A stretch of DNA of 64,000 nt, from positions 86,834,945 through 86,898,944 of the forward strand of contig CM038216.1 in the NCBI GenBank assembly GCA_021442155.1, in the 5' to 3' direction. This DNA comes from Cymbidium sinense (lineage: Eukaryota; Streptophyta; Magnoliopsida; Asparagales; Orchidaceae). This document shows, in pieces, positions 252-29,367 of the stretch. Below the pieces are notes generated by a model. The model was not told the DNA's origin. It worked only from the letters and a program-made list of their open reading frames with translations, and searched no databases. Both the position numbers and the translations under genes were made by a program. Every line of letters starts with the position of its first letter. Positions within the stretch are counted from its first letter, which is position 1.

Positions 252-1020
252 CCCTAAACCATACACTAATCCTAACTAAACCCTAAACCCCAACCCTACA
301 CTAAATCTAAACCATAAACTAACTAAATCCTACTATTACCTAAATCCTCCTAACCCTATAACACTGACCACTTCTTACCCACTCCTGGACCAAGATGCCT
401 ACCCACCCTAAATAAAGACCCTGGGCTAAACCCAAGACCCTGGGCCCTGGGCTCTAAACCTGAGCCCAGGCTCCTGGGCACTGGGCCAAAACCCTGAGCC
501 AGGCTTACAGCCAGACCTGGGCCACTGGTGACCCCTGAGCCCTAAGGCCTAAACCAGGATCCTGAAGCCAGCCCTGCTGAGCCCCCACAAGACCCTGGGC
601 CCTGGCCCAGCCCTGGGTAGGCCCTAACCACTAAGGCCCTGGGCACTGAATACAAAACTGGGCCTAAAATGACCACTGGGCACATAACCTAAAATAATAA
701 AAATAAGATAAATAAAACTTACCTAAATAATAAATGAATAAATAAAACTCTAACCTACTAAAAAAATATAAACTAATAAAATAATAATAAATAAATAAAC
801 TAAAATAAAATAATATAAACCTAAACTAAATTAAAAAAATAAACCTAAATAAAACTTAAATAAAATAAAATAAAAATAATAAAATAAAACCAAAAAAAAA
901 AATAAAATAAAGTAAAAAACTAAATAAAACCAAAACCTAAAAATAAACCTAAAATAAACCTAAAATAAATAAAAATAAAACCCCAAACCCTAATAAACCT
1001 AAAACATAAACCTAAACCAA
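252..1020. repeat. Degenerate CCCTAAA telomere-like array with CCCTGGG/CCCTGAGCC variant block
   Basis: CCCTAAA-related heptamers dominate 252-410. From about 411 to 672 the repeat changes to GC-rich variants built on CCCTGGG, CCCTGAGCC and GGCCCTGG. It then becomes an AAATAAAATAAACCTAAA type array to 1020. No gene is present. The CCCTGGG block could be true sequence drift or a base-calling or consensus artefact known for telomeric repeats in long-read data. Confidence 0.85.
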
Positions 1021-1420
1021 AATGGGGTCAGTAGGCTTGTCTAGATCGGTGGGTCGAGGTGGATTATCAGATGGTGGTGGTGGATCTGGAGTCTTGGTGG
1101 ATATGGAGGTGGTGGTCATATGGTGGTTATGGAAGTGGGAGGAGTGAGGTTACATCCATCTTTGGTGGTAGGGAGAGATCAGGTGGATGCTACTCAGGAG
1201 GCAGGGGTTGATGGGAATAGAAGAAAGCGAGAATGGAGCCCGATCATTGCTTATGGGCTGTGTCTTTAAAGTGATATATTCTAGTTATCTAGGGTTTTTT
1301 TTTGCTCTATGTGTCATTTTTATCTATGTTGTCCTTGTGTCTTATAAAACTTGGTGTGTTACTTGGTTGATTAAATCAAAGAAGAAATGTTGAATTTGAA
1401 TTTATTCTCTATTAAAAAAA
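1021..1420 (+). pseudogene. GR-RBP 3' fragment retrocopy, copy 1
   Basis: Decayed 3' end of a glycine-rich RNA-binding protein mRNA. The region around 1060-1180 still reads GGTGGATATGGAGGTGGTGGT-type codons (Gly/Tyr rich), followed by a 3' UTR (TTATCTAGGGTTTT, CTATGTCATC-like, TTGTGTCTTATAAAACTTGGTGTGTTACTTGG) shared with the other copies, and a poly(A) run at 1414-1420. The conserved start of the coding part (the NGQNLDGR region) is badly eroded, and the RRM is absent as in every copy. Frameshifts destroy the frame, so no product is expected. Confidence 0.8.
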
Positions 1421-1936
1421 TAACAAACTCTAAACTAAACTAAACCTAAACCCTAAACCTAAAACCTAATCACAACCTAAACCATAAAATCCCTAAACCT
1501 AAAACCAAAACCTAAACCTAAACCTAAACCTAAACCTAAACCCCAAACCCTAAAACTAAACCTAAACCCTCCCTACTAAACCTAAACTAAACCTAAACTA
1601 AACTAAATAAATAAAATAAAATAAATAAATAAACCTAATAAATTAAAATAAAATAATAAAATAAGATCATAAACTAAACCTAAAACTCCTAAAATAAAAT
1701 AAAATAAAATAACTAAACTAAAATAATAAATAAATAAACTATGAATAAAACCTAAATAAAATAAAACTAAACCTAAAGTAAAATAAAATAACCCTAAACT
1801 AAACCTAAACCTAAACCTAATAAATAAATAAATAAAAATAAAATAAAATAAAAAATAAAGATAAAATAAAATTTAAAATTTAAAAATTTAAAAAACTAAA
1901 AAAACTAAAACTAAATAAAAATTAAAATAACATAAA
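1421..1936. repeat. CCCTAAA-like then AAATAAA-like array
   Basis: About 170 bp of fairly regular CCTAAA/CCCTAAA units is followed by AAATAAAATAAA and TTTAAAATTTAAAA blocks with sparse CCTAAA. It separates GR-RBP copy 1 from the ORF1-only LINE. No gene is seen. Confidence 0.85.
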
Positions 1937-4900
1937 ACCCCCCCTTATCTGCGATTTTGAGATTCATGTGTGGTTGTCCCTATGGCTTCTTGGTGAGTGT
2001 TCATTTTCTCTCTTGGATTCCCTTTATATTATTGGCCTTGGGATCTCGACTATTTTGGTCCGCGGCCATGACTCATGGCGTCGACTTCTCCCAATCCATG
2101 GATCCATGTCGACAGTCAGCTAGGGCATCGAGTTTTGGGTAATTGTACCTCTAGATTACTATTACTAAATCTTTCAAAGATGCTTTTAGTAAGAACTCCT
2201 CCACTAAGCCTCTCTGAATTTAATTCATATGATGTTTAAAGGTACTCAGATTATGATTTTGGATCGATATTGAAAGATTGAGCCTTTTATTTTTTCTTTG
2301 ATTGGAAAGTTTTCCTCCAAAGCGACCATGATGGAAGATATTCATTCTTTTTTTTCACGACTTAAATTTATTTGGTTCTTCTTCTTCTATTAGGATTGAT
2401 TGAGGCATGTTCTAAATTTTTCTAATGATCTTGATTACGGAAGAATTTTTCTAGGCATTCTTACTATATTTTTAAATGTCAAATGTGTATTTTGAAGTGG
2501 ACGATATGTTTGATGTTAATGAAGAGTCTCTTATTGTTCCCATTTGGATTTCTTTTCTAACTCATGGATTCATCTATTTAATCATCGATTCTTTATGTTA
2601 TTGGGTCAAATTTTGGTGACCTTTGCAAGTTGATCATCAAACTACTTCTTCTAAATGGTGCTAGAATTATTGTAGAGATTGATATTACTAAAAATATCGA
2701 AAGAAATTTGGTTGGGTTGAATTGCGTTATTTTTAGAAAGTTATTTTTGAGAACTTTCCCATTTTTGTAATCATTGTAAGATTCATGGGCATGACATTTA
2801 CGAATGCTTTTATTCACTCTCTTAGGAAGAAAATCACCAATAAGAATTCAATTGTTAAAAAAACTAATGATTCTCTCAAGTTGGATAAAGGGAAATCTAC
2901 TTTTCAAAATTCTAATATTTTGCAAAACTAGATTTCTAAATCTTCTAAAAATTTTTTACCTATTAATGATTTTTTCTAATGCATTAAATAATTTTGATGT
3001 TTCTAAAAAGTTTTAACTAATAATCATGCTCTAAATGTTTCTTGATGATTATTAAGGGAAGCCTTTTAGAGGTTAATGATTCTATTAGTTTGGATGTTGT
3101 GCATAAGTCCTTTCATGATGATGGTTTGAATATTATTAATGCTAACACCATTTCTTCCAATCAATTGGATGTTGTTTCTCTTTCTTCTATGCTTTAGATC
3201 ATGGGAAAGAGATTATTTCTTTTTATTTGATTAAGAATGGTGAAAAGAATGTTCTTATTTCTAATATTTTAACTTTTGGACCTGATAATCTTGTTAATAT
3301 TCGCGATCCTTTTTTAAAAAATAAGATTTAGATACCTACGATAATTCTCTCATTGTGAATAGTTTTATTTTGGTTCAAAATGATGGTTTTCTATGGTGGT
3401 AATTATTCAAAATTTTGGTAATATCTTATATGTGTTTCTAAGGGATTTGAATCTTATTTTAATCCCTTACATGAAGTTTGTACTAAAATCTAGATTTTTT
3501 CTTCTCTTGATTTTTTTGAATGAAAGGCAGGAGGATACTCTTGATTTTGTTGGAAGGTGAAAATATTGATAATTGCCTTCTAAATAAAGCTCTTTCTGCT
3601 CCTTCTTTCACTTCTGATTCTGAAATGCATACTATTTTTTATTCTCCTTTGTCTAATGCTGTGGATGTTTCTAAATGCTCTTCTTTGAATTTGATAGCAT
3701 CTGTTGATCTCCATGCCTTTTATAATAACACTGATTCATTTTTGCATGGAGATTTTTTTTTTAAAGGGCATGGTTATAAAAGCTTTACAAGAAGAAAAGG
3801 AAAAAAAGTGTTTGATTTATGCCTCCTCACTTGCTTAGGGTTACTAATTACAAAGCTTTTTGAAAATAATCTCTCTTGTCCTTGGGAGGTGTTTTCTTTT
3901 GGCCAATTTTATCTATGTTGGTTGAGCTTTTGCTATGTGATTTCTTGCTAGCTGAAGTATTGGCTGCTTGGCTAATTTTTCTTCTTTTGGCTTGGTGTTT
4001 TTGGCTTCCTGTTCACTAGTTTTTTTTGTGTCCTTTGGTTGGTTGGTTTCTTCTTTTCTCTATTTTTTTTGTGTTGGTGGCTTTGTTCCTCTTGGCTTGC
4101 CTCTCTTTGGTTGGTGCTTTTGCTCTCTTTGTTGGTGGTAGGTTGGGCTTTTTTTCCTTGGCGTGTGGTTTGTCCCTTGGTTGGTTGTTTCTCTAGCTTT
4201 TTATTTTAGCTATTGACGCCCTTTTTTCTATTGGTTGGTCTGCTTTCTTGCTCTTTCCTGGGCTATTTTTCTTGGGTGCTCTGTTGTGTGGTGCTCTGTT
4301 AGCTGTTTCCATTCTTTGGTTGGTGCTTTGTTGGCTTTGATTGGTGTTGTTGTGGGTTCTATTGGCTTTGTCTTTGTGGGCTCTTTTCTTTTTTTTAGGG
4401 TGTGAGTTTCTTTTCTCCCACTTTTTAAGAGGTGTTCATATTTGGTTTTGTTGGGAATGCCTTATGTTAATTTTTTCTGTTGCTTTCCTCTCTCTTTCTA
4501 TTTCCTTAGCTTCACTTTTTCTTTAGTTGGGTGGCTATTATGATAGGTTTGTATTCTTCTTTGGCTGGGATGGCTATGATAATATGATGGATTTTTTTTC
4601 CTTTAATAATTTTATGGTTGGTGACTTTTCTATTTTAACCCATCGTTGAAGGATACACTTAGGATTTGATGCCTCTCATTATTGTGATTATCCTTCTTTC
4701 CTCATATCTGAGTTTTTCTCTTTATGTTTTTTTCGATGTGAGATTTTGTTGCAAGTTGTAGATTCTCATTTTCAGTTGGTCTCTTCTTCTTCTTGGAGGA
4801 GCTAGAGTCTTCTTGATGGTCTCTCTTTCTTAGATGGAGTTGTCTTGATTGGGTTTCATTTTCCTTTGGTTCTTCATCTCTTTGGAGGTTCTTTTTGGAG

Positions 4901-5114
4901 CTCATGGATTCTTCCCCTTTGGTGCCTTTGCTTAGCTTTTTTTTTTCCTTTTTTTTTCTTTATTGCTCTTTAATGTATTAGTTTAGGGACTAAACTCTTT
5001 AAGATTCTCACTCATTTGTGAGTATTTTTTTTCTTTTGAGTTTAGTCTCTAATAAGGACTCTTGTTTCTTTTTTTTTTCCTTTATGAGCAATAAATTCTT
5101 TTTAGTTAAAAAAA
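1937..5114 (+). mobile_element. L1-type LINE, ORF1 only, with 3' UTR and poly(A)
   Basis: Starts abruptly after telomere-like DNA and ends in a poly(A) run (about 5108-5114) joined to CCCTAACC. The left half encodes a decayed plant L1 ORF1 (see separate entry). The right half (about 3970-5107) is a T/G-rich 3' UTR with many TTGGTTGG motifs and a terminal GCAATAAATTC before the tail. No endonuclease or reverse transcriptase is recognisable, and at 3.2 kb there is no room for a normal 3.5-4 kb ORF2. It is therefore an internally deleted or genuinely ORF1-only element. A second, 5'-truncated copy of its 3' UTR sits inverted at 40323-41286. Confidence 0.7.
2290..3951 (+). pseudogene. Plant LINE ORF1 remnant (DUF4283 plus CCHC zinc knuckle)
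   Basis: Nucleic-acid-binding ORF1 protein of plant L1-like LINEs, which coats the element RNA. Seen across frames: a GKFSS-like DUF4283 start near 2305, FEVDDMFDVNEESLIVPIWI near 2490-2550, ARIIVEIDITKN near 2660-2695, and a perfect zinc knuckle C-x2-C-x4-H-x4-C at 2763-2807 (FCNHCKIHGHDIYEC). Stop codons and frameshifts interrupt it. The last stretch, 3520-3951, is open for 143 codons, has a basic patch (TRRKGKK), and may be the ORF1 C-terminus. The family assignment rests on the DUF4283-CCHC order typical of these proteins. It is not functional as read. Confidence 0.7.
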
Positions 5115-7455
5115 CCCTAACCACTACTTAAGCTAAAGGCTAAAAAATAAAATAAACCCTAAATAAAGAATAAAATAAATAAATAAAGAGCCTGCTATGA
5201 GCCTAAAATAAAATAAGAAATAAAAAAGAAAATCCAAGACTAAAGTAAATATAAAATAAATAAAGAAAAAAGACAAGAACTAAATGAAAGATAAAATTAA
5301 AATAAACTAAATAAAAAATAAAAAATAAAATAAACATAAAAATAAAATAAAATAAAACTAAATAAAACCTAAAATAAATAAATAAATAAAATAAAAAAAA
5401 TAAACCATAAAAAAAACTAAACTATAAAAAATTAATAAACCTAAATTAAAAAACTAAACTAAAATAAATAAAACCTAAAAGATAATAAACTAAACCTAAA
5501 CCCTAAACTAAAAAATAAAATAAACCAAAATAAACTAAACTAAAAAATAAAACCTAAAATAAACCTAAAAATAAAACCTAAACCTACTAAAATAAAATAA
5601 AACCTAAAACCTAATAAAATAAAAAATAAAATAAAATAAAAATAAAAAACTACAAAAAAATATACTAAACCTAAATAAATAAACAAAATAAATTAACTAA
5701 ATAAATAAATAAATAAAAAATAAATAAATACTAAAGATAAATAAAAAAATACTAAATAAATAAACTAAATGGTTTTGTTATTTAAAATAACTAAAACTTA
5801 AACCTACCAGATCCTGAGCCACAAACTCTACCATAAACCAATGATCCTGGGCTTGCAGGCCCTAAACCCTGAAACTAAGATAAAGATAAAAGAGAGCCCT
5901 GACCCAGGCCTAAACAAAAACCAGACTACAAGGCCATCTTAAACCCTCTAGGCTGAGCCCAGGCCACTGAACCCAACCCAGCCCTAAACCAGCCCTCTAA
6001 CCCTGAGCCTACACAAACCCAAACCCAAACCTAAACCCTAGCCACACAAAATTACCTGTGCCACAACCCTACCCAAAAAGTGAGCAAACCTAAATAAAAT
6101 AAAACCTAAAATAAAATAAATAAAAAACTAATAAAATAAATAAAATATAAAATAAAAACATAAACATACACAAAAGAAAAATAAAATAAAGAAATAAAAC
6201 AAAAATAAATTAAATTAAATAACTAAACTAAAATAAAAAAACCAAAATAAAATAAAACTAAACCTAAAATAAAATAAATCAAATAAAATAAAATAAAATA
6301 AAAAACTAAATAAAACCTAAAAATAAAAATAAAAAATAAAATATAAAATAAAATAAAATAAAAAATAAAAAAAATAAATAAATACCTAAAACTGGTTCTT
6401 ATTAAAAAAAAAAACCCTAACCCCAAATAGTAACCTTAAACAAACCACAACTAACCTAACCACAACCTGACAACTAAACCACAAAACCACTAAAACCCTA
6501 GGCAAAACCTAAAATAAACCTAAACCTAAACCACAAACTAAAAACCATACCCCAAACCCTAAATCCTAAAAAATCTAAACCTAAACTAAATAAAACTAAA
6601 TAAATTAAATAAAAAACCTAAACTAAAAGAAAATAAAATAAAAATAAAATAAAAAATAAAACATCTAAAACTAAATAAAAAAAGAAAATAAAATAAATAA
6701 ATAAATAAAAAAAATAAATAAAATAAAGTAAACTAAACTAAAAATAAAATAAAAAAAAAAACTTAAATAAAACAAAACTCAATAAAATAAAAATAAAATA
6801 AACTTAAAATAAAATAAAATAAAACTAAATAAAACCTAAACCTAAAATAAACCTAAAAAATAAACCTAAAAAAAATAAAAATAAAACCTAAATAAATTAA
6901 AGAACCTAAAATAAAATAAACAAAATAAAATAAACTTAAAAAAAATAAAATAAACTAAACTAAAATATAAAACCTAAATTAAACTAAAATAAATAAACCT
7001 AATTAAATAAATAAAAAACAAACTAAAAGTAAACCTAAAACCTAAATAAAATAAAAATAAAAAAACCTAAAATAAAAAAATAAGCTAAAAAATAAAATAA
7101 AACCTAATAAACTAAAATAAATAAACTTAAAACTAAAAATAAAATAAAAAATACCTAAAATCAAACTAAATAAATAAACTAAAATAAATAAACAAAATAA
7201 ATAAGCTAAACTAAATAAATAAAATAAACCAATAAAATAAAATAAAGTAAACTAAAATAAATAAAATAAACTAAATATACTAAATAAACCTAAACCTCTG
7301 ATTCTTAATTAAAAAATCATAAACCCAAAACCCTAAAACACCTAGCATAAACCACAAACCCCCAAACCCTAAAACCTAAACTAAAAACCTAGTAACTAAA
7401 TAAATTAAAAATAAACTAAACCAAAACCCTAAACCAAAACTAAACCTAAACCCCA
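5115..7455. repeat. Composite telomere-like satellite, C-strand orientation
   Basis: Alternating blocks: AAATAAA/AAACCTAAA arrays (5150-5767, 6075-6390, 6590-7295) and CCCTAAA-type blocks (5790-6070, 6411-6560, 7318-7455). The 5810-6060 block has GC-rich CCTGAGCC/CCTGGGC variants. AT-rich to CCCTAAA boundaries carry the junction motif described separately (5771, 6394, 7301). The AGTAACTAAATAAATT flank lies at about 7391. No genes. Confidence 0.85.
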
Positions 7456-7878
7456 GAATGTGAGAACCTTGACGGAACATCACCATCGGCTGATCCCAGA
7501 TCTGCGTGGAGGAGAAGGCAGGACGGCGATATCATAGTGGTGGTGGGGGATAGATCTTGGTGGATATGGAGGTGGTGGTCGGAGTAGGGGTGGTTATGGA
7601 GGGGGAGGAGCCGAAGGTTACATCCATAATGGTGGCGGAGGAGAGATTAGGATATGAGATCCCTACTGAGAGTGGTTTTGATGGGGCTGGCGAAGAATGG
7701 TTGATCCATTCCTGCTTATGGCTGTCTTTATAGTAGATATGATTCTAGTTATCTAGGGTTTTAATTTGCTCTGTGTTCATTTTTTATCTATGTCCTCTTG
7801 TCTTAGAAAACTTGTGTTTCTTGGTTGATGAAATCAAAAGAAGAAATGTTGAATCTAAATTTTTCTCTAAAAAAAAAA
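7456..7878 (+). pseudogene. GR-RBP 3' fragment retrocopy, copy 2
   Basis: Begins with the remnant of the NGQNLDGRNIT coding start (AATGTGAGAACCTTGACGG, ACATCACCATC), runs through a Gly/Tyr-rich tract (GGTGGATATGGAGG, GGTGGTTATGGAGG at about 7555-7600), then a degraded C-terminus and the shared 3' UTR, ending in about ten As at 7869-7878. There is no RRM and no intron. Indels in the first 60 bp and later break the frame. It is part of a near-1.4-kb tandem unit with copies 3 and 4. Confidence 0.85.
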
Positions 7879-8945
7879 CTAAAACCCACAAACCTAAACT
7901 AAACCATAAACTAACCATCCATAACCATAAACCCACTAAACCTAAAACCCAAACCATAACTACAACCCCAAAACCCTAAACCAAAAACCCTACTAAAACT
8001 TAACCTACCCTAGGCTACTAAACCAAACCAAACCTACTGAGCGTTAAACTCTGAGCCTAAACCACTATGACCCTACCACTAAACCTAAACCAAAAAAAAA
8101 ATATAAACTAAACTGATAAACTAAATAAAACCTAAAATAAAATAAATAAAACTTGAGCTAAATAATAAATAAATAAAATAAAATAAATAAACTACATATA
8201 TAATTAATTGGTTAAAATGAATAAAAACCTAAACTAAACTAAAAAAATAATAAACCTAAAATAAAACTTAAATAAATAAATAAAAAATAAAAATAAAATA
8301 TAATACTAAATAAAACTAAACCTAAAATAAACTAAATATAAACCTATAAAAATAAAAAAAATGAGCCAAAATATAAAATAAAATAAAATAACTAAACCTA
8401 AACAAAATAAACTAAACTAAAATAAATAAAACATAAACTTAAATAAAACCTAAACTATAAAATAAAATAAATATAAAATAAACCTAAATAAACTAAAAAA
8501 ATAAAAACCTAAAATAAACCTAAAATAAACTAAAACCTACCAAAAAATAAAATAAAAAACTAAAACCTAAAAAAAATAAAATAAAACCTAAAAACTAAAA
8601 ATAAATAAAGCAAAAATAAAATAAAAACTAAACTAAAATTAATAAACCTAAATAAATAAACTAAACTAGATAAAAATAAAATAAATGATAAAATAAAATA
8701 AATAAAAATAATCTAAATTTACTAAATAAACCTAAACCTACTAGTTTGCTTAATTTAAAAAAACAAATCCTAAACCTAAAACTAAATCTAACCAATCTTA
8801 AACCATAAACCCCACCCTAACCACCCTAAGCATAAACCTTAAATCCTAAACCCTAACCAAAACCTAAACTCAAACCTAAACTAAACCTAAAAATAAATTA
8901 ATTAAAATAAACCTAAACCCTAACACTAAGAAACTAAATGTAAAC
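7879..8945. repeat. Composite telomere-like satellite unit
   Basis: Short CCCTAAA-type tract with some GAGCC variants (7879-8090), AAATAAAATAAA array (8091-8740), junction motif at 8745-8760, then CCCTAAA-type block to 8945 with AAATAAATTAATT near 8892. No gene. Confidence 0.85.
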
Positions 8946-9363
8946 CCCAGAATGGGGAACATGGTAGGAACATCACCATCAACCGTCGATCTAGATCATG
9001 AGGGAGGCGAAGGTGGGTTATAGTATGGTGGTGGCTCAAGATGGTGGATATAGAGGTGTGGTTGGGCGTTGTGGTTATGGAGGAGGAGTGATGGAGGTTA
9101 CAGTGGTGGTGGAGAGAGAGGGGGATATGATGGTGGATCTTGCTAGAGAGTGGTTGATGAGGCGGGAAACTAAAGGATGGCCGTCGATCTGCTACTTATG
9201 AATGCCTTTATAGTAGAGTGGTTCTAGTATCTAGGTTTTTATCTATGTGGGCTCTGTTTTGATCTATGTCATCATTTGTGTCTTATAAAACTTAGTGGGT
9301 TACTTGGTTAATAAAATCGATTAGAAAAAATGTTGAATCTAAATTTGTTTTCTATTGAAAAAA
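8946..9363 (+). pseudogene. GR-RBP 3' fragment retrocopy, copy 3
   Basis: Same boundaries as copy 2: starts at the degraded NGQN..GRNIT segment (AATGGGGAACATGGTAGGAACATC), keeps a Gly/Tyr/Val-drifted glycine tract (9010-9130), and ends in the shared 3' UTR with poly(A) at about 9358-9363. A 67-codon open frame at 8998-9201 is out of the original frame and is not considered real. No RRM. Confidence 0.82.
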
Positions 9364-10363
9364 TAATAAACCCTAAACTAAAACCTGAACCCTTAACCCA
9401 AAACCTAAACCCTAAACCATAAACCATATATAATAAAACCTAAACCTAAAAAACTAAATTAAACCTAAACTTAAACCAACATTAAACCTAAACAAAACTA
9501 AACCTAAAAAACTAAAAACCTAAACCTAAACTAAATAAAACCTAAAAAATAAATCAAAATATAAATCAAAATAAAATAAATAAAAACATAAACTAAAACC
9601 TAAACATAAAATAAAATAAAATAAAAATAATAAAATAAATAAAACTTGAACTAAACTAAAAATAAAAAAATAAAATAAAATGAAAATAAAATAAAAATAA
9701 AATAAAATAAATAAAATAAAATAAAACTAAATAAAATAAAACCTAAAATAAACCTAAAAATAATATAAAATAAAACTAAATCTTAAAACAAAAAACTAAA
9801 CCTAAAATAAAATAAAATAAAACAAAACCAAAACTAAATAAAATAAACTAAAATAAAGAAAACCTAAAACCTAAACTAAATAAAATAAATAAAATAAAAT
9901 AAACTAAAATAAAACCTAAATAAACTAAAATAAACCTAAAAATAAAACCAAAACTAAACTAAAATAAAATAAAACCTAAACCTAATAAAATAAAATAAAA
10001 CCTAAACCTAAAAAATAAAGAAAATAAACTAAACTAAAAATAAACTTAAACCTAAACTACCAAAATAAATTAAAATATAAACTAAAATAAATAAACCAAT
10101 TTAAATAATAATAAAAATAAACTAAATAAACCTAAACATAATAGTTTACTTAATTTTAAAAAAAAATAAAAAAATAAAAAGCTAACCTAACACACAAAAC
10201 CCTAAAACCTAAACCCTAATACCACTAAATCATAAACCCCAAAAACCTAACCCCAAACACTAAACCCCAAACCCTAAACCTAAACCTAAAGTAACTAAAT
10301 AAATTTAAAAGTGAACCAAAACCCTAAAACCTAATAAACCTTAAACTAAACCTAAACCTAAAG
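9364..10363. repeat. Composite telomere-like satellite unit
   Basis: CCCTAAA-type tract (9370-9540), AAATAAA array (9541-10140), a perfect junction motif TTTACTTAATTTTAAAA at 10145-10161, CCCTAAA block with AGTAACTAAATAAATT near 10290, up to the next GR-RBP fragment. No gene. Confidence 0.87.
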
Positions 10364-10814
10364 ATTGAGAAAAACCTTGACGGTAGGAACTTCACCATCA
10401 ATTAGGCTCAGTCTAGATCTTGGATGGAGGCAAGGTGGAGCGGCCGTTATCGTGGTGGTGGGGATCGGAGGTGTTGGATATGGAGGTGGTGGTAGTAGTG
10501 GTGGTTATGGAGGTGGGAGGAGCTGAAGGTTACCATCATGGTTGGTTGTGAGGAGGAGATCGAGGCTATGATGGTGGACCCCACTACTGAGAGGGGGCAT
10601 TCATGGGAACTAGAACGAAGAACGATCGATCGATTCTTTGCTTATGGAACTGTCTTTATAGTAGAGATGATTTTAGTTATCTATTATTTTTTGATTTGCT
10701 CTATGCATGCTCATTTTTTATCTATTGTCAAACTTGTATCTTAGAAAACTTGATGTGTTACTTTGTTGATGAAATCAAAGAAAGAAATCTGAATTGTTAT
10801 CTATTAATAAAAAA
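10364..10814 (+). pseudogene. GR-RBP 3' fragment retrocopy, copy 4
   Basis: Starts with the NGQNLDGRNIT remnant (ACCTTGACGGTAGGAAC), followed by GGTGGTGGGGATCGGAGG and GGATATGGAGGTGGTGG tracts, a C-terminal part reading TATGATGGTGGA, and the conserved 3' UTR (CTGTCTTTATAGTAGAGATG, TTAGTTATCTA) ending in As at about 10809-10814. Indels disrupt the frame. It is the innermost plus-strand copy before the strand orientation of the satellite flips. Confidence 0.85.
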
Positions 10815-12311
10815 CTCTAAACTCACAAAACCCTAAAACCACAAACCCAACCACAAACCCCAAATCCTAAACCCTAAAAAGCTAAAAACATAATCCTAAA
10901 CTAAAAAAAACTTAAACATAAAATAATTAAATAAAACCTAAACCAAAATATAATTAAAAATATACTAAAACTAAAACAAAACCTAAACCTAAATAAAAAA
11001 CCAAAAAAGAAAATAAAATAAAAAATCAAAACTAATCTAAAATAAAATAAATAAAAACCTAAATAAAATAAAAACTAAACATATAATAAAAATAAAAGAA
11101 ACCTAAAATAAAATAAAGTAAAAACTAAATAAAAACCTAAACCTAAAAATAAACCTTAAAATAAATAAAAAATAAAACTTAAACCTAAAAAACCTAATAA
11201 AATAAAATAAACTAAACCTATTAAATAAATAAAAAAATAAATAAAACCTAATCTTAAACCTCAAATAAACTAAACCTAATACCAACTATATAAATAAAAT
11301 AAACTAAAAATAAACCTAAACTAAAATAAATAAAAATGCAGATATAAAACCAAACCAAAATAAAATAATATAAACCTAAACATAAAAGATAAACCTAAAC
11401 CTATGAAAAAACTAAACTAAAATAAAAACTAAATATAAATAAACTAAATAAAATAAAACTTAAAATAAAATAAACTAAATAAACATAAACTATGGTTTTC
11501 TTAATTTTAAAAGATAAAATAAATAATTAATATATAAACCCAAATATGCTAGGCCCTAAACTGGCCCTAAACTACCTCTAACCTAGCCCTAGGCCCAAAT
11601 AAAACCCAGGCCACAACCCAGGCCCTGAGCCCTGAGCACTAAACTAAACTAAACAGGCCTAGCAAACTAAACTGAGCCCTAAATAAACCTAAACCACCCA
11701 TGGACCTGACCCTAAACCACAAGGGCAATCCCTGACTCTAAAAACCTAACCTAAACTAAATAAACCTAAAATGAAATAAATAAGAAAACCTAAAACCTAA
11801 AATAAAATAAAATAAAATAAAAAACCAAATAAAACCTAAAACTTAAAAATAAAAAAATAAAAAAAATAAAACTAAATTAAAATAAAATAAATTAAAAATA
11901 AACATAAATAAAATAAAATAAAAATAAAACCAAAAAAATATTAAAGAAACTATGTAAAATAATTAAAATAAACCTCAAATAAAATAAAATTCTAATTAAA
12001 TAAACTATAAATAAACTTAAAATAAAATAAATAAAATAAATAAATAAAATAAACAAAATAAAATAAACCTAAATAATAAATAAAACCTAAACCTAAGCTA
12101 AATAAATAAACTAAACTATAAAATAAAAAAACTAAATAAACCTAAACCTAAACTAAAAATAAAACCTAAAATAAACCAAAATAAAACCTAAAAAAAAATA
12201 AAATAAAACCTAAACCTAAACCTAAAATATAAAATAAAACCTAAACTTGAAATATATAATAAAAAATAAAACTAAACTAAAAATCAACATAAACTTAAAC
12301 CTAAACCTAAA
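10815..12311. repeat. Composite telomere-like satellite without a GR-RBP fragment
   Basis: CCCTAAA-type start, AAATAAA array (10905-11490), junction motif TTTTCTTAATTTTAAAA at 11496-11512, then a GC-rich variant block (11540-11745; CCCAGGCC, CCCTGAGCC, GGCCCTAAAC), then a second AAATAAA array to 12311. After the 11.5-kb junction the usual GR-RBP fragment is missing. No gene. Confidence 0.85.
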
Positions 12312-12329
12312 AAATAGAAGTTGATGTAG

Positions 12330-16999: not shown

Positions 17000-17042
<43 letters not shown>

Positions 17043-20367: not shown

Positions 20368-20783
20368 TTTTTTTTAACAGAGAATATATTAAAATTAAAC
20401 ATTTTTATTTTAAATTTTATCAACCAAGTCGCACCCCAAGTTTTCTAAGACACAAGTGATGGCATAGATAAAAAATGAGCACCCATAGAGCAAATTTAAA
20501 ACCTAAGATAAGTAGAACCGTCTTTACCATAAATAGTTCATAAGCGGTATCAATCAATTCTTGGTTTCTATCCCAGAGATTTGAGTAGCGGATAAGCCAT
20601 CATATATAATTATCCACCACCAAGTCCTCAGTGCTCCTCCTCCATAACCAGCTCGACCACCACCTCTATTCCACCAACACCTAGGATCCCCACACCATTA
20701 TGATAAGGCTCCACCTTTGCCTCCAGCTAGATCTAGCCAAGTTGATGGTGATGTTCCAGCTATCAATGTTCTGCCCATTCTTT
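20368..20783 (-). pseudogene. GR-RBP 3' fragment retrocopy, copy 5 (minus)
   Basis: Read on the minus strand it starts near 20783 at the NGQN.. segment (reverse complement GGGCAGAACATTGATAGCTGG), has a glycine tract, the shared 3' UTR (reverse complement of ATAAATAGTTCATAAGC, AGATAACTAG-like sequence) and a poly(A) run at 20368-20375 on the TTTAGGG side. The frame is broken by deletions. It is the first inverted copy. Confidence 0.82.
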
Positions 20784-21385
20784 GGGTTTAGGGTTTAGGG
20801 TTTAGAGTTAGTTTAGGGTTTAAGGTTTAGGGTTATAGGTTTTAGGGTTTAGGGTTTAGGGTTCTAGGGTTTAAGGTTTAGAGTTTATGCTTTTAGAGTT
20901 TAGGGTTTAAGGATTAGAGTTTATGATTTAGAGTTTAGAGTTTAAGGTTTAGGGTTTAGAGTTTAGGATTTAGGGTTTTGAGTTTAGGGTTTTAGGGTTT
21001 TTTATTTAGGGTTTAGGTTTTATGGTTTTATAGGGTTTTATTTAGGTTTAGGGTTTTTTTAAAATATTTTACCGTAGTTTAGGTTTATTTAGTTTATTTC
21101 TATTTATTTGAGTTTATTTTATTTTCCATTTTATTTTTTATTTTATTTTTTTATTTAGTTATTTTATTTATTTTAGGTTTTTTCTATTTTAGTTTAGGTT
21201 TTTTTTTGTTTATCTTTAGGTTTAGGTTTATTTTTTAGTTTTATTTTTATTTTATTTTTTTGGGTTTATTTTATTTTATTTTAGGTTTATGTTTAGGTTT
21301 TATTTTATTTTAGGTTTAGGTTTTAGGTTTATTTTATTTAGGTTTATTTTTAGTTTAGGTTTAGTTATTTTAGTTTATTATTTTT
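20784..21385. repeat. TTTAGGG array passing into TTTTATTTTAGG array
   Basis: TTTAGGG/TTTAAGG units to about 21050, a weak junction element (TTTTTTTAAAATATTTTACCG), then TTTATTTTATTTTAGGTTTAGG-type sequence up to the LINE 3' end. Confidence 0.87.
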
Positions 21386-21389
21386 TTGG

Positions 21390-24300
21390 GAAACCCCATA
21401 TGGGAATTTTATTACAAAAAAGGGTTAGAAGTCCTTAAAGGGGATAAACTCCTTATGCTCAAAGAGCTACAATCAACCTAGAGAGTAAATCCCTATCTAA
21501 ATACAACTAAAAGCAAAATAAAGAGTAAGGAAAGCAAAAGATACAAATTGATTAACAAGATAAGCCAATGGAATGGAAGGGGAAAGCTCTTGATGAGAGA
21601 ATGCATGACACTATGGAGCAAACCCAGAGAACAAGAAAATTGCACCTACAAAATTGTAGAAAAAAGAAATTAGAAGTTAAGGGTATCTGAAGAGTGAAAA
21701 ATGAAAGCGACATAAACAAAAGATAATAAGAAGTGTGATGGAGAAGGCTTAGCTCATCACAAGTTGAGGATGCAAATATGAGCATCCATACTTAGAGGTT
21801 ACATCACAAGAGACTACCAAACCAAAAGAGTGAAATCATCACGACCATCATAGCCAATAAACATGCAACCATTTCTTGAAAGTCTTTTGAGCCTTAGTAC
21901 ACACCAAAAAAAGCAAAACCTATCTGAATAGAAGAAAGCGACAAAGAGAAGAATGGGTAAGGGATCCCATGCAGAGTAAATGTCATATTAGGCACCATGT
22001 ATGAGAATCCCAACACAAATGAAAGTGAATCATCATTGTCAAGTCTACCATATTTTTCGTCCAAGGGTTTAATTAGATAAGCATGAAGACCCACCAGAAA
22101 AAACAGAAAAGGCTAAGGTAAGAAGCATAAAAGACCAATAAAGACTACTAAAATCCAACAAGGCAAATAAAATAGCATCCATCCCAAACATATGGGACAA
22201 ATATTAAACAAACATCTGGTAAATAGGTAGAGGATATACCCTAGAAAAGAAGTGCAATGAAAGAAAGCAATGCAGAAGTTAACAACCTCCGTGTTACAAG
22301 TTAGTAACCGACAAGTGTAAGGCAAGACATATCCCAAGCCCAAGTTACCATAGGGGACAAAGTCTAGAGAGGAGATGGGAATGCACCAGATTAGATGAAC
22401 CATAAGGCATGGTAAAATTCTCCCCATAACAACTCCAAGTAAAGAAAGATAATCAGGTCGGCGAAAACTCGATCGGTTAAGATAGTAATAGCAACAAGCC
22501 ATAAATCCACCCATTGAGTAAACAATGCATAGGTTAAAATCAAATTAGGCAAAAGCATAATCTCGATTGATGCATAATCTAATAGAACCAAGAGGAAGAA
22601 AATAGAGAGGTTAAGTAGATCTCAAACATCGTGATCGATGCTGACATGCAATCAACAAAAACATTCAGAAAAGCAGTAGGCAACAAATAGCCAACAACCA
22701 CAAAGACAGCCTGCTGGACATAGGACAATAATACAATTATTGCACCCACCATATGATAAGCCAGTGAAAAGCAGAGATGCAAAAAAGAAACAAAAGGGCT
22801 TCAAAAGATAGTCAACATTGAAATCCTTCAAAGTAAAGATGAGCTTGCTAAACCAAAATCCTTAGGAAAAGCAGACTGGAAAGAAACCATAAAGTAAGAC
22901 CAATCCTGCAAAGATAATAAAAATAACAAAAAATTATATTTCTCTCTTCAGGTTGGGAAGATGGGGTTAGCAAAATCAATCAAAACAAAATAACTCCAAA
23001 ACCACCTGAGCATGATAGATAGCAGAGTGACTTGTTGGGCATAAAACCCAATGATCAGTTAGCCAACAACCAAGATAGGAAAAAATAGCAAGTTGGCCAT
23101 AAAACCACCCATTCAAAATAAATGCATAAGATAAATTCAGGTAGATAATGAAGTGGTCAAGTCTACGAACAAGATGGAAAAAAATAGCGAGTTTAGATGG
23201 CCTCAAACATGTGATGATCTCTGCTATTGCAACAACAATAATAAGCAGAAAAACAAAAGCCACCATGCAGCTAAAAACCTCAAAAGAGGCCAGCTGGTGA
23301 TAAGAACCCAAAAACCCAGAAGCATCTTATTGAGCATTAATCCAGTTCAATAACCAAGAGTAACTACCAACAAAGGCCAAAATCCACCCATTCGAGTATT
23401 GCATATGTTAATATCAATTAGGCAATAGCATAATCATTTATGCACAATTCTAAAACCAATAGGAAAAAATAGCAATAGATTAAGTAGACTTCAAATATCG
23501 TGATCATAGTTGCAAACAACAAAATAGTGGGGACAAATAGGAAAGCAATTCCAATCTGTAGAAATAATCAAAAAAACAACAAACAACCACACCACAAAGG
23601 CGACTGATAATGGACCATAATCCAACCAACAAATAAAACATCACTACAATTATTGCACCAACCATAAGATAAGCCAAAAAAGAATAGTGAGGCAACATAG
23701 CCACAAAAAGGGTTCAAAAGTAAACCATCAATGAAATCCTTCAAGACAAAGGAGAGTAGGTTAGCAGCTGAACTACCATCCTAAAAAAAACATACTGAAA
23801 GGAAATCATTAAGTAAGTCCAATCCTGCAAAGAGACAATAATAATAACAAGGGTATTGCAGTTTCTCTCCTTACAGGTTGGGGAGATGAGGTTAGCAAAT
23901 ACAATCAGCAAACCAACCCCAAGAGCGACAGGACAAAGGCCAGAAATCCACATTAAAAACATCAAATAGATATTGCACCCACCATAAGAAAAGCCGGTAA
24001 ATAATGGTACAACATCGTTATAAAGTGGTCCAAAGGAAAGCCATCTTTAAGATCCATCAAGACACATAATATCAGAAGCTAATCCCATAGCATCAATAAT
24101 AACAGACTGGATGGAAATCAGGAAATAATTCCAAACCTACAGAAAAGAAGTTATAATAGCAAAGATATTGCAATTTCTCTCTCCTTATAGGTTGTGGAGG
24201 TAAGGTTATGGAACATAGGAGGCCACAACCATAATAAGGAGAAGAATAGATAAATTAGGGGCCACCATAAGGTTACAGTATAGCATTTAAACATTGAGAT

Positions 24301-24737
24301 AAGTGCCCAATATAATTCCAAAAGAGAAAAAGGAGGAAGAACACACTTTAATCATAAAATGAGAAACAAAATAGTAGGATCCATAATCAAAATATGGATG
24401 GCAAGAGGTTTGTCCTGTTGATCAAAAATAAAGCGAGAAAATAAAGCATAAAGTAATACATCTCCCTCCAAAAAAGAAACACCTTACCATTAAAAGTGGA
24501 AGCAGAAGCGAGGCCACATTTAAGGTTGGGAGAGTTAAACCAACAAAGATGCCAGAGATCAAAATAACCAAGGGGCATTAGGATGCATCAACAAATTCAA
24601 ATGAACATCAACACATTAACGGTAGGAACAGAAGCGGTAAAATTAAAAGGGTAATTAAACCAACAACAAGGGATATCAGGATGATGCATGTAAATTCCCA
24701 AGAAATAAGCACTAAATAGAAAATGATCATGCGTTAA
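21390..24737 (-). repeat. LINE 3' UTR with internal tandem repeats
   Basis: Unusually long non-coding tail. Diverged copies of one segment (TTGCACCCACCATA..AAGCC.., followed by TTTCTCTC..CAGGTTGGGGAGATG..GTTAGCAAA) occur at about 22740-22975, 23660-23900 and 23975-24215. Another segment (CCACCCATT..GCATA..) recurs near 22508, 23107 and 23390. Minus-strand open frames here (133 codons at 22113-22514; 111 codons at 22976-23311) are hydrophobic from base composition and match nothing I know, so I do not call them genes. Confidence 0.65.
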
Positions 24738-27480
24738 TCAGTAATATAGCGAAGGTTGGATTAATTTTGAGATAAGGAGTCCAATATTGTCCAGATTCAC
24801 CAATCCATGCAAATGTTTAGGAAGAGTAAGTTGATCAAAGAATTTTACCATCAATCTAGCTCCTAGATTGGCAAGGTAATCGACACATGCATTACCCTCA
24901 CCATACATGAGAGATTTTAAAATAGAGTTGAGAAAGAGAGCTCTAGTCTCTTGAGAAGATAATATAATTACTACCCATTTTGGTGGAAGTCAAAAGATCA
25001 ATCAGTGAGGCATCCACCTCAATCAAATATTGAGCCAACCTTTTGAAGGCAAATCTCAAGAGCTTTGTACCGCCATTAGCTCGACAAAGAAAGGAACAGA
25101 GCAAGTATTAAGGGGGTAAGCAAAAGCACATAGGACTTTACCATTAGGGTTTTTGAAAATGCCGTCATAGCCAGAAGCATTTTGAGAGACAGAGCCATCA
25201 GTGTTAATTTTAATAGTATTAACATGAGGTTTAACCCAATAAATAATCTTGTCATCTTTACAGTTGGGTTGATCCGGCAAGTTAAACCCAATTTATTGGC
25301 CATAAATTTACAACCTTTGAAATGTTTGTAGTTAATTAAATTGGCATTGAACAAAGTCATGATTTTATTTTTAATTCTAGCAATTATCCTCATGTGGTTC
25401 ATAGGAATCCCATGATGTTTTGCATCATTTCTGTCCATCCATATGAACCAAATAAGAGTGATAGCAGTTATGACTTTAATGTGACCTTTAGTAGTGTTAT
25501 CAAAATAAACTTCAAGAAGCTGGTATAAAGTTAAGGAATGAATTTACAATGTTAAGAGATCATCATACCAAATCCAAAGTTTGGAAGCAATGGCTCCATT
25601 AACAAAACATGATTTACATTCTCAATGTGAAAGCGCGTGGCATTTTGAAGGTAAGTGAAAACCTTTCACATCAAGGAGTCAATAGGGATGAAGTTTTTCA
25701 AAATACAAGTAAGAATAGAAAAAGTAGGAATAGTGTTATTCCAAAGTTTGAAAAAATACATTGGAAAAATCATGAGCTTCTTTAATATGAATCCAAACAT
25801 TTTAAAGTTGAAATCACCATTTTGAGAAAGCTTAAAAGGATCATGATTGCTAGGTATGATAGGAATAGTAGTAAGCTTGCTTAAAAGAGAGGAAGGAATA
25901 TAATCAAGTAAGCTATTGTTCCATATTATCATAAAGAGTTCACTTTAATAGCAGGTGGAATGGGTACAAAGTAAATCATCAATGGACCCACCTCAGTCAG
26001 TTATCTTGCCAAAAGAAAGAGGTGCGAGTTAATCCCCATAATGATTGACATCCCATTTAATGGAATAAAGTCTTTTCCAAATAGGAGAGTCTCCCACTTT
26101 ATAGGGGCAAATGAGAGGTGCTTACCGCAATATTTAGCATAATGAAATTAGCCCAAAGACTATTGTTACTCTAAAATTCCACCAAATTTTATAGGAAAAA
26201 GTAGTGATAGCTTCCTTGATAGGCTTACATCCAAGACCAACCTTCAGAGTGCCACAACTTTTATACCAAGAGGTCCATGCATTCTTTTAGAGGAATTGTT
26301 AGAACCCAAAAAATTTGTTAAGGAGACGCTCAATTTAATTAATGTATTGGCACAATGGTTTGAATGAGATATAAAGGCATGGAGTTAATGGTGCTCTTAA
26401 TCAAAGTGAGCCTACCACCAAAATGAGTAAATGAAATTCCCAAGCAGAAATTTTATTAGAGATTTTTTGGATTAACTCATCAAAAAGATGAGATCTTTTA
26501 TGACCTTTAAAAGGTGGAGCACCAAGATATTTAATAGGAAGTTATTGTTGTTGAAATTAGTAATTCTCAGATTTGGTTGATCCTATTACTAGGGATTTTA
26601 GAGGAAGTAATGAAACAACTTTTGCCTTCATTAAGAAAAGACTTTCATTGCCAAATTTATTTAAAAGATTCTTAATAGTTTTAATGTGAAGAATAGAGGC
26701 ATTGCAAAAGATTATAAAGTCATCGCAAAACTAAGATGAGAGAGGAAGACCACCTTGAGTTCTAAAAACATGCTAGGGTTATTATAGAAAAGATCATTTA
26801 GGCTCCTCAAAGATATTCAATAATAATAATAATAAAGAGAGGTGAAAGGGGATCACCTTGTCTCAAGCCATGCATCAAGGGAAAAACCAAGGGACTCACC
26901 ATTCATGATAGGAGAACCAAACATTGGAAATACAATTTTTTGATGAGGATAAAATTATCAAAAGCAAATGAAGAATTTGAAAGAAATCCCAAGAGAGGTT
27001 GTCAAAAGCTTTAGAGATGTCCAGTTTGAAAAGGATGTTGCCACCTCTGATAGGAACATCAATGTCATGAATCAGCTCTTGGGCTAGAAGTATGTTATCA
27101 GATATAACTCTACCTTTAATGAAGCGAGTTTGGTTGGGGGAAATAATTTTAGCGGCGGACTAATTATAATATCAATTAATTTAGCAATGAGTTTATGAAA
27201 GAAGGTGCAAAGGTGATAGTAAAATCACCCCGATTTAGGATTATTAATTTTGGGAATGAGAACAATGGAAGTGCTAGAAAATATCTAGGTAAGGGGTTTC
27301 CATCAAAAAATCAACAACTGCATCAACAAGGTCGGACTTAATAATAGGCCAAATAGTGCTTGAAAGGTGAGTCGTGTAGCCTTAAGCGATCATGTTCATG
27401 CTTGTGAGAATACTATCTCGTTTTTAGGATGCAAATTAAGCAGTGGTTGTCATCATTAGTAATGTTGAGGAGGCTCAGTG
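24738..27480 (-). pseudogene. LINE ORF2 pseudogene (RT, zf-RVT, RNase H)
   Basis: Sense order from high to low coordinates. RT: STSIVLIPKINNPKS (about 27275), IISPNQTRFIKGRVISDN (about 27135), LFKLDISKAFDNLSWDF (about 27040-26990), GLRQGDPLSPL (about 26870-26840), and an altered catalytic box FCDDFIIF (about 26725; FADD is usual). Then YLGAPPFKGHKRSHLFDELI (about 26530) and GGRLTLIKSTINSMPLYL. A zf-RVT-like region lies near 25930-25600 and IWFIWMDRNDAKHHGIPM near 25440. RNase H: IKINTDGS, ELMA, then a YGEGNACVDYLANLGA tail and LPKHLHGLVNLDNIGL, ending at a stop at 24738-24740. Frameshifts and stops occur throughout. The endonuclease is not seen. Confidence 0.87.
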
Positions 27481-27487
27481 TGTGTTG

Positions 27488-27587
27488 NNNNNNNNNNNNN
27501 NNNNNNNNNNNNNNNNNNNNNNNNNNNNNNNNNNNNNNNNNNNNNNNNNNNNNNNNNNNNNNNNNNNNNNNNNNNNNNNNNNNNNNN
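27488..27587. other. Assembly gap, 100 N
   Basis: Exactly 100 Ns, the conventional size for a gap of unknown length. LINE sequence lies on the left and TTTAGTTTAGG array on the right, so unknown sequence, including the LINE 5' part, is missing. Distances across it should not be trusted. Confidence 0.99.
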
Positions 27588-29367
27588 TTTTTAGTTTAGG
27601 TATATGTTTATTTTTAGTATATTTTATTTTATTTAGTTTAGGGTTTAGGTTTAGTTTATTTTAGGTTTAGGTTTAGGTTTTATTTATTTTAGTTTAGTTT
27701 ATTTTAGTTTAGGTTTAGGTTTATTTTATTTTGTTTATTTTAGGTTTAGGTTTTTTTAGTTTAGGGTTTAGGTTTTATTTTTTATTTATTTTTAGGTTTA
27801 TTTTTAGGTTTATTTTTAGTTTAGTTTTTATTTAATTTTATTTTATTTTATTTTAGGTTTATTTTATTTTTATTTTATGTTTAGTTTGTATTTTATTTAG
27901 GTGTTTTATTTTTTAGTTTAGTTTAGGTTTTTATTTATTTTATTTCAGTTTACTTTTTATTTTTTATTTTTTATTTTAGGTTTAGGTTTATGTTTTAGTT
28001 TAGGCTTTTTATTTTATTTTATTTTATTTATTTTATTTTGGTTTAGGTTTTTTATTTATATTATTTTTAGGTTTTATTTAGTTTAGGTTTAGGTTTCAAG
28101 CTTTTTAGGGTTTAGGGTTTAGGGTTATTTGAGGGTTTAGGGTTTGGGGTATTAGGGTTTAGGTTTTAGGGTTTAGGGTTTAGGGTTTAGGGGTATTAGG
28201 GTTTAGGGTTTAGGGTTTAGGGTATTAGGGTATTAGGGTTTAGGGTTTAGGGTGTAGGGTTTTAAGGGTTAAGGTTTAGGGCTTAGGGTTTTGGTTTTAG
28301 GGTTTAGGGTTTTGTGTTAGTTTTACAGTTTAGGGTTTAGGGTTTAGGATTTAGGGTTTAGAGTTTAGGGTTTAGGGTTTAAAGTTTATTTTAAAATTAT
28401 GTAAATAGTAGGTTTAGGTTTATTTAGTTTATTTTATTTTATTATTTAAGTTTATTTTTTTATTTAGTTTAGTTTATTTATTTTAGGTTTATTTATTTTG
28501 GTTTAGCTTTTTTATTTTAGTTTATTTTTTAGGTTTAGGTTTAGGTTTATGTTTATTTTTAGTTTAATTTTATTTTTTATTTTATTTTCAAGTTTAGGTT
28601 TAATTTTTGATTTTTAGGTTTAGGTTGGGGTTTTATTTTTGGTTTATTTTTAGGTTTTATTTTTTAGTTTAGGTTTAGGTTTATTTTTAGTTTATTTTAT
28701 TTTATTTAGTTTAGGGTTTAGGTTTAGTTTATTTTAGGTTTATGTTTAGGTTTTATTTATTTTAGTTTAGTTTATTTTAGCTTATGTTTAGGTTTATTTT
28801 ATTTTGTTTATTTTAAGTTTAGTTTTTTTTTTTAAGGTTTTAGGTTTAGGTTTTTCTTTCAGGTTTAGCTTTTTATTTTATTTTATATTAAGTTTTTTTA
28901 TTTTTATTTTATGTTTAGTTTTTTATTTTGTTTAGGTGTTTTATTTTTAAATTTAGTTTAGGCTTTTATTATTTTATTTTAATTTAGTTTGTATTTATTA
29001 TTATTATTATTATTTTAGGTTTTGGTTTAGGTTTAGGTTTAAGTTCAGGTGTTAGTTTAGGTTTTATTTTATTTTATTACTTTATTTTATTATGGTTTAT
29101 GTTTATTTATTTATTATATTTTTAGGTTTTATTTAGTTTATGTTTAGGTTTTTAACTTTATCAGGTTTAGGGTTTAGGGTTATTTGATGGTTTAGGGTTT
29201 AGGGTTTATGGTTTAGGGTTTAGGGTCTAGGATTTAGAGTTTAGGGTTTAGGGTTTAGGGGTTAGGATTTTTTAATTTAGGGTTTAGGCTTTAGGGTTTT
29301 TAGAGTTTAGGGTTTAGGGATTGGGGTTTAGGTTTTAGGTATGGGGTTCAAGTTTTAGGTTCTCTAG
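27588..29367. repeat. Composite telomere-like satellite, G-strand orientation
   Basis: Alternation of TTTATTTTAGGTTTAGG arrays (27588-28104, 28406-29160) and TTTAGGG-type blocks (28105-28388, 29161-29367). Perfect TTTAGGG runs occur around 28170-28250. The junction motif TTTTAAAATTATGTAAA is at 28389-28405. No gene. Confidence 0.88.

Follow-up and report, generated by a model that had tools for sequence, protein, structure and literature searches.

Truncated mRNA retrocopies and LINE modules in a single orientation within interstitial telomere-like arrays of Cymbidium sinense

How the 3′ ends of ordinary gene transcripts came to recur, in a set order and a single orientation, within telomere-like DNA is the question raised by a 64,000-nucleotide stretch of the Cymbidium sinense genome (C3:86834945-86898944, here called the window, where C numbers denote contigs), in which truncated copies of a GR-RBP gene alternate with CCCTAAA-type repeats. 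The window lies at 86.8 Mb of a 223-Mb contig and thus holds telomere-type repeats away from chromosome ends. Following searches of the genome (3.526 Gb in 2,174 contigs), we consider it likely that the locus belongs to a dispersed composite satellite, in which L1-type retrocopies entered telomere-like DNA in one orientation and single founders were then amplified at the DNA level. The satellite base would consist of degenerate CCCTAAA blocks and an AAATAAA-rich module of approximately 0.5 to 0.85 kb that ends in a motif, J, mostly with oligo(A). Single founder insertions of GR-RBP, ribosomal P0 (RPP0), and a long interspersed nuclear element (LINE), LINE-A, would then have been amplified as DNA over many contigs, in units ranging from monomers (approximately 0.8 to 1.9 kb) to a block no shorter than 11.4 kb. 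No comparable satellite was found described among the titles and abstract beginnings listed in searches of open-access papers.

The first-pass genome searches returned 9,343 candidates for GR-RBP, 2,716 for P0, and 1,520 for LINE-A, which are not copy counts, and the best 40 of each were scored. Genome loci fetched around best-scoring matches are designated L001, L002, and so on; duplicate loci (L001, L002, L008, and L043) and the parent locus (L009) were removed before the junction, start-point, and tree counts.

The module order described in an initial reading of the window, made from the letters alone (the sequence-only reading), was confirmed: an AAATAAA array, J, a CCCTAAA block, a AGTAACTAAATAAATT-like flank (F), a GR-RBP 3′ piece with an A-run, and CCCTAAA again, with GR-RBP pieces starting at 7456, 8946, and 10364 as reported. 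Three of the four junctions claimed there shifted slightly in a stricter scan (to 8743, 10142, and 11494), while the fourth, at 7301, was missed by the scan, yet is readable in the sequence. The period of 1.35 to 1.5 kb holds locally, with spacings of 1,490 and 1,418 bp, and gives way elsewhere to approximately 0.8 to 1.9 kb; the 1.4-kb unit, likewise, stands as a monomer, which sits inside a larger block of at least 11.4 kb common to C5. The repeat components of these units are as follows.

6575..7295, plus strand: AAATAAA module (tandem-repeat scan, module alignment)
8105..8735, plus strand: AAATAAA module (tandem-repeat scan, module alignment)
9533..10130, plus strand: AAATAAA module (tandem-repeat scan, module alignment)
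10890..11495, plus strand: AAATAAA module (tandem-repeat scan, module alignment)
7301..7320, plus strand: J motif, degenerate, with oligo(A) (read directly)
8743..8767, plus strand: J motif with oligo(A) (read directly and scan)
10142..10168, plus strand: J motif with oligo(A) (read directly and scan)
11494..11512, plus strand: J motif (read directly and scan)
7389..7407, plus strand: F flank 5′ of GR1 (scan)
10288..10306, plus strand: F flank 5′ of GR3 (scan)
5790..6080, plus strand: CCCTAAA block, probably miscalled as CCCTGG-like (sequence; published artifact)
11540..11730, plus strand: CCCTAAA block, probably miscalled as CCCTGG-like (sequence; published artifact)

The F flank is degenerate in the unit of the GR-RBP copy at 8946, and F flags at 5691 and 6592 were taken as false, being located within AAATAAA arrays with no GR-RBP piece after them. 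The pattern used for J is the stricter of two, the first having been dropped as far too permissive. A tandem-repeat scan of the window (TRF, period limit 500) gave periods of up to 214 among those listed.

The source of the amplified piece is a GR-RBP gene on C13 near 36.95 Mb, which is composed of exon 1, a short intron, and exon 2 (encompassing the glycine-rich part, the stop codon, and the 3′ untranslated region), and whose flanks are not telomere-like. Its product matches the Pfam profile RRM_1 (E value of 3.4e-22) and is closest to proteins of Dendrobium (94%) and Phalaenopsis (92%), over about half of the query. The amplified piece extends from inside exon 2, past the only intron found, to the mRNA 3′ end, where the retrocopies carry an A-run at the point at which the genomic sequence of the parent continues, the A-run representing poly(A). 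These pieces are 5′-truncated, poly(A)-tailed copies of the C13 gene. Twelve are present in the window, four on the plus strand (left of 12311) and eight on the minus strand further right.

1065..1420, plus strand: GR0, GR-RBP retrocopy with its 5′ part altered (window search, start-point review)
7456..7880, plus strand: GR1, GR-RBP 3′ retrocopy with A-run (95.7% to its positional C5 counterpart)
8946..9370, plus strand: GR2, GR-RBP 3′ retrocopy (94.4% to its positional C5 counterpart)
10364..10815, plus strand: GR3, GR-RBP 3′ retrocopy (95.5% to its positional C5 counterpart)
20368..20780, minus strand: GR-RBP retrocopy (window search)
29366..29412, minus strand: GR-RBP remnant, 3′ end only (window search)
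31906..32380, minus strand: GR-RBP retrocopy (window search)
32783..33246, minus strand: GR-RBP retrocopy (window search)
34675..35161, minus strand: GR-RBP retrocopy (window search)
35430..35830, minus strand: GR-RBP retrocopy fused to a P0 remnant (window search)
37719..38202, minus strand: GR-RBP retrocopy downstream of P0 (window search, module-order scan)
56097..56573, minus strand: GR-RBP retrocopy (window search)

When compared with the copy at 7456, the other copies in the window gave E values of 4.8e-74 to 6.7e-9, the weakest being that of the 47-bp remnant; given these values, and because all pieces trace to one gene, the similarity is not a product of chance. The 5′ ends were assessed in 100 matches from the window and the fetched loci, of which 73 have a start no later than mRNA position 265 and 150 bp of readable 5′ flank. 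Their starts fall at position 245 (60 copies), 246 (9), 255 (2), 249 (1), and 265 (1). Another 11 matches are truncated by a locus edge, and 16 begin further in; by eye, 13 of these 16 keep the common start followed by small deletions, the remaining three being GR0, a P0 fusion, and a spurious 54-bp match. Furthermore, a 6-nucleotide and a 3-nucleotide gap relative to the parent are common to all 24 of the copies with few deletions, and another 3-nucleotide gap to 23 of them. These common gaps and the 69 of 73 starts at mRNA base 245 or 246 give good support to the proposal of the sequence-only reading that one founding truncated retrocopy underwent amplification inside a telomere-like satellite. 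GR-RBP fragments without telomere-like flanks had been named as counterevidence to this proposal. Of the 73 copies, 71 have telomere-like DNA on the 5′ side, the exceptions (L007 and L014) having a LINE at the junction, and on the 3′ side such DNA is present in all 78 copies that extend to mRNA position 700 and have 150 bp of readable sequence beyond; a shorter copy outside these flank counts (L040, 6723-7012) runs at its 3′ end into other DNA.

The features that go beyond the initial reading are retrocopies of a second gene, RPP0, together with LINE modules, a multi-kilobase block, and the one-way orientation of the inserts. Two RPP0 copies lie in the window.

38349..39222 (38375-39222 in the genome search), minus strand: RPP0 3′ retrocopy with A-run, exons 2, 3, and 4 joined (sequence and genome search)
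35859..36322, minus strand: second RPP0 copy, truncated, fused to GR-RBP (sequence; a piece of it matches RL10P_insert with an E value of 1.8e-18)

The P0 parent gene is located on C4, and its introns of 3,622 and 81 bp are absent from the retrocopy. A-runs terminate the P0 copies, where they may represent poly(A). Capture of gene pieces at the DNA level by a Helitron- or MULE-like element would account for dispersal over many contigs, and it is rendered highly improbable by the spliced state of P0 and by the A-runs in which both P0 and GR-RBP pieces end.

Thirty P0 loci were fetched (the best 30 of the 40 scored, L043 being the window's own copy), and P0 begins at the same place in all 30 aligned copies as judged by eye, that of L065 with changes. 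Two groups are apparent. LINE-A precedes P0 in 18 of the 19 loci of the first (L043 to L061), L060 being without it, and the scan misses a J, F, or GR-RBP match at a few of these loci; in the second (L062 to L072), GR-RBP usually comes after P0, often with a further GR-RBP behind it. The order LINE-A, J, P0, F, GR-RBP recurs on several contigs. P0 copies differ pairwise by 9.0% within the first group and by 12.1% within the second, against 16.9% across the two groups; the within-group values are probably too low because the loci are best-scoring matches. A tree was built from 63 GR-RBP copies after removal of those covering fewer than 430 positions; the 12 copies linked to first-group P0 all fall in a single clade (support, 0.999), within what is overall a deep, nearly star-like radiation through which the copies linked to second-group P0 are scattered. 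The P0 grouping and the GR-RBP tree, as comparisons of best-scoring loci only, would fit successive waves, and GR-RBP would have been inserted first, followed by P0 and then LINE-A.

Two kinds of LINE accompany these retrocopies.

1938..5112, plus strand: LINE-A module, with an A-run then CCCTAA at its 3′ end (sequence, genome search, C5 comparison)
40323..41280, minus strand: LINE-A 3′ part, heading the LINE-J-RPP0-F-GR order (computed from the match; order scan)
21381..27540, minus strand: region taken as LINE-B, L1-type, with an array-side A-run, ending at an N gap (sequence; RVT_1 match)

In 20 of the 20 LINE-A 3′ ends fetched elsewhere (picked from the 40 scored matches), an A-run is followed by telomere-like DNA, most having closely similar downstream sequence by eye. 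A reverse transcriptase is not obvious by eye in LINE-A at 1938-5112 (no profile search was made), and the element may be non-autonomous. For the window copy of LINE-B, an 87-amino-acid piece matches RVT_1 with an E value of 3.9e-6 and 27.1 bits, below the Pfam cut-off of 29.6. Six LINE-B insertions (L007, L014, L034, L035, L041, and the window copy) all have one orientation, in which the A-run faces the array; the orientation of L034 is judged from the 5′ flank only, as the locus stops within the A-run. The 5′ edges visible in L007, L034, L035, and L041 differ from one another, and the LINE in L007 has a target-site duplication at the GR-RBP junction, with 11 of 12 bases alike. At positions 1 to 247 of the window, a T-rich island with an A-run at its end is followed by CCCTAAA, and no LINE-A or LINE-B match was obtained there at the settings used. 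The "gypsy" label that had been given to 12312-20022 was not confirmed, the single 128-amino-acid open reading frame tested returning only a sub-threshold Mo25 match.

The orientation of all inserts was assessed by a density-based junction scan of both strands, in which duplicates, the parent, and non-array control loci were left out. An A-run of at least 6 is present at 112 of 139 3′ junctions, and a T-run of at least 6 at 14 of 113 5′ junctions; as every one of these 14 is P0 exon sequence, no antisense insertion was seen. The junctions are copies of few events, representing approximately nine separate insertions (GR-RBP, P0, LINE-A, and six LINE-B), all in one orientation. In AAATAAA modules, the T-rich strand has 145.4 TTT^A sites per kb and the other strand 0.9; the corresponding densities are 113.1 and 0.6 per kb in CCCTAAA blocks, compared with 15.6 and 10.3 per kb in six control loci.

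It is proposed that L1-type machinery reverse transcribed polyadenylated RNAs (GR-RBP mRNA, P0 mRNA, and LINE RNAs) into telomere-like DNA. TTT^A-like sites are plentiful on the T-rich strand (TTTAGGG/TTTATTT) and scarce on its complement, such that cDNA would be primed from the same strand each time and every insert seen would, as a result, read sense, poly(A), CCCTAAA side. We infer a nicking step by an L1 endonuclease, and the trap mechanism is put forward on account of the insert polarity, the site asymmetry, and the one target-site duplication. Unequal cutting of the two strands of TTAGGG repeats by human L1 endonuclease in vitro (PMC10887698) also speaks in favor of such a mechanism, within the limits given below. 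By extension, the satellite may act as a one-way landing strip, one strand of which presents tandem L1-endonuclease-like sites, where mRNA and LINE copies are trapped, amplified as satellite, and archived in waves (GR-RBP, P0, LINE-A); this broader proposal is offered tentatively, as one that may prove wrong somewhat more readily than right.

The same polarity bears on a second explanation, in which retrocopies were added at real chromosome ends, the telomere 3′ overhang priming cDNA, and were then buried by telomerase and internalized by fusions or translocations. The polarity of the poly(A)-CCCTAAA junction would be that expected for priming by a TTTAGGG 3′ end; against this stand the target-site duplication of the L007 LINE at an internal GR-RBP junction and the spread of best-scoring copies along C1, and we regard such an origin as quite improbable. 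Best-scoring matches are distributed along the 377 Mb of C1, with an excess on that contig, which received 43 of 97 protein-class matches (10.4 expected) and, in the DNA searches, 12 of 40 for GR-RBP and 16 of 40 for P0 (4.3 expected each). Canonical telomere sequence was present in none of the 12 contig ends examined (250 bp each). C1 begins in an AAATAAA array, and C9 begins in degenerate TTTAGGG-like DNA.

How the insertions multiplied is addressed by a block shared between two contigs.

691..12085, plus strand: block common to C5 (95648076-95660492), holding GR0, LINE-A, GR1 to GR3, and telomere-like arrays (BLASTN)

The window block and its C5 counterpart form a single BLASTN match of 12,765 columns with 91.9% identity over ungapped columns, while, as a control, the best matches of the block to another array region of the window extend over 1.7 to 2.0 kb. 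GR1, GR2, and GR3 are tandem diverged monomers both in the window and on C5, and in this one block pair monomers at the same position are 95.7, 94.4, and 95.5% identical, versus 83.5 to 90.0% for other pairs; the 5′ edge of LINE-A is at the same place in both block copies. The block match, the positional monomer identity, and the common LINE-A edge together indicate that the copied units are blocks well in excess of 1.4 kb.

Spread by retrotransposition would explain several of the same features, LINE-A read-through RNAs carrying array, P0, and GR-RBP sequence by 3′ transduction into the CCCTAAA arrays of other copies, so that the tandem appearance would reflect nested insertions. All modules are sense to LINE-A and each has a terminal A-run, LINE-A heads nearly all first-group P0 loci, and every fetched LINE-A 3′ end runs into telomere-like DNA, as described above. 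Such a process predicts varied 5′ truncation, whereas the LINE-A edge is the same in the two copies seen and the GR-RBP and P0 starts are fixed; moreover, the C3/C5 block, of at least 11.4 kb, contains several internal A-runs. We consider this route unlikely, though worth retaining, and infer that spread occurred at the DNA rather than the RNA level.

A number of points weigh against one-way L1-type insertion followed by DNA-level amplification. The block comparison covers two contigs only, and multi-kilobase blocks could possibly spread through read-through RNA. An A-run of at least 6 is lacking at 27 of the 139 3′ junctions; among these 27 are joins between inverted arrays, N gaps, edges of other elements, blocks that were miscalled, and A-runs that have decayed. 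The six LINE-B insertions all come from the array loci examined, and LINE-A or LINE-B may also insert outside arrays. Just one target-site duplication is visible, because such duplications are unrecognizable inside CCCTAAA repeats. Finally, the parts seen of a study of human L1 endonuclease on TTAGGG repeats in vitro report that cutting within 10 min reached 90% on one strand and 50% on the other, the identity of the G-rich strand being unclear from that text (PMC10887698). This strand difference is a bias and not an exclusive choice, and, since both strands are cut, an asymmetry of nick sites need not lead to insertion strictly in one direction.

The AAATAAA modules of different units are positionally homologous: in 54 of the 55 pairs of modules, the two align better than in any of 8 word-shuffled controls. 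Derivation of AAATAAA from decayed CCCTAAA was rejected, as it needs C-to-A changes, whereas GR-RBP decay is mostly C to T/G to A, and because of this positional homology. An origin as a nanopore artifact was also rejected, the published miscalls, in the part of that source seen, being TTAAAA, CTTCTT, and CCCTGG (PMC9414165). An A-run of at least 5 directly follows J in 49 of 64 places, which suggests, as a suggestion only, that the AAATAAA module may itself be RNA derived. Three J-J pairs lack a detected module: that in the window (minus strand) contains a GR-RBP remnant, that of L060 an N gap, and the 1,005-bp interval in L030 is a possible empty unit. Inverted array junctions, with TTTATTTTAGG followed by CCCTAAA, were observed in L026 near 401 and L035 near 477, and a similar switch in L034 near 537. 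Within a J motif of L042, an AT-rich microsatellite has expanded (2865-2974, reverse orientation).

Decay was assessed in the 24 GR-RBP copies with few deletions, and insertions and deletions in 44 copies covering at least 380 mRNA positions. The 24 copies differ from their own consensus by 12.0% on average, with C-to-T/G-to-A change at 26.8% of CG (214/798), 23.5% of CHG (231/985), and 6.8% of CHH sites (239/3,536), a bias that, judged from sequence, would be the signature of old methylated DNA and is unlike random error. Among the 44 copies, 595 deletions versus 78 insertions were counted, deletions being clustered by locus (3 to 35) and substitutions ranging from 11.6 to 19.3%. The locus-dependent small deletions look like residual long-read (nanopore) error, and such local deletion errors inflate divergence. 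CCCTGG-like stretches replace CCCTAAA at 361-690, 5790-6080, and 11540-11730 of the window, at 1-264 of L038, and in L096, and are probably nanopore miscalls of CCCTAAA. The portion seen of a report on nanopore miscalling at telomere repeats describes the above three miscalls, with Arabidopsis telomeres also affected (PMC9414165), and the part consulted of the C. sinense genome description gives assembly from nanopore reads into 20 pseudochromosomes (PMC11697506).

An assembly artifact, in which the alternation arises from collapsed or miscalled nanopore reads, would accord with the CCCTGG-like stretches, the nanopore origin of the assembly, and the clustered excess of deletions. It would not explain the identical module order in many loci, the CG- and CHG-biased decay, which fits methylated old DNA and not random error, or the positional homology between modules, and very little credence can be given to it.

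The likely history outlined here has consequences beyond this locus. It provides a route from the mRNA ends of ordinary genes to satellite DNA and an account, simple and open to testing, of one-way insertion into telomere-type repeats; founder insertions and later block copying furnish layers by which satellite growth and dispersal may be traced. In practical terms, this genome contains many pseudo-copies that probes and annotations for GR-RBP and ribosomal P0 will encounter, and nanopore miscalls distort composite telomere-like arrays.

L1-mediated processed retrocopies are usually single dispersed copies. The pieces described here resemble L1-mediated processed pseudogenes in their poly(A), 5′ truncation, and (for P0) intron loss, and differ in that one founder per gene joined an amplified repeat. 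Satellite higher-order repeats likewise comprise diverged monomers within larger, more similar blocks; unlike these, the present monomers hold gene- and LINE-derived pieces, a comparison which rests on one block pair. For interstitial telomeric repeats of seed plants, one of the origins proposed is amplification in the manner of a satellite, and the genera cited include Dendrobium, likewise an orchid, in the part of that work seen (PMC8621592). These share with the window degenerate CCCTAAA/TTTAGGG DNA away from chromosome ends (PMC8621592), whereas the arrays here are composites that also carry a LINE and captured mRNA ends, arranged in a set order and copied as multi-kilobase blocks. As far as the account consulted extends, SART/TRAS, Zepp, MoTeR, and GilM/GilT are similar in being LINE-type insertions into telomere-type repeats in a family-typical orientation, and differ in being described in telomeres (PMC10088271), the present arrays being interstitial. 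Unlike with telomere-associated LINEs, non-LINE mRNAs were also inserted here and the inserts became satellite modules. The system is best filed as a variant combining known kinds, in which a telomere-like satellite of interstitial location has been copied in large blocks and has captured L1-type retrocopies in one orientation.

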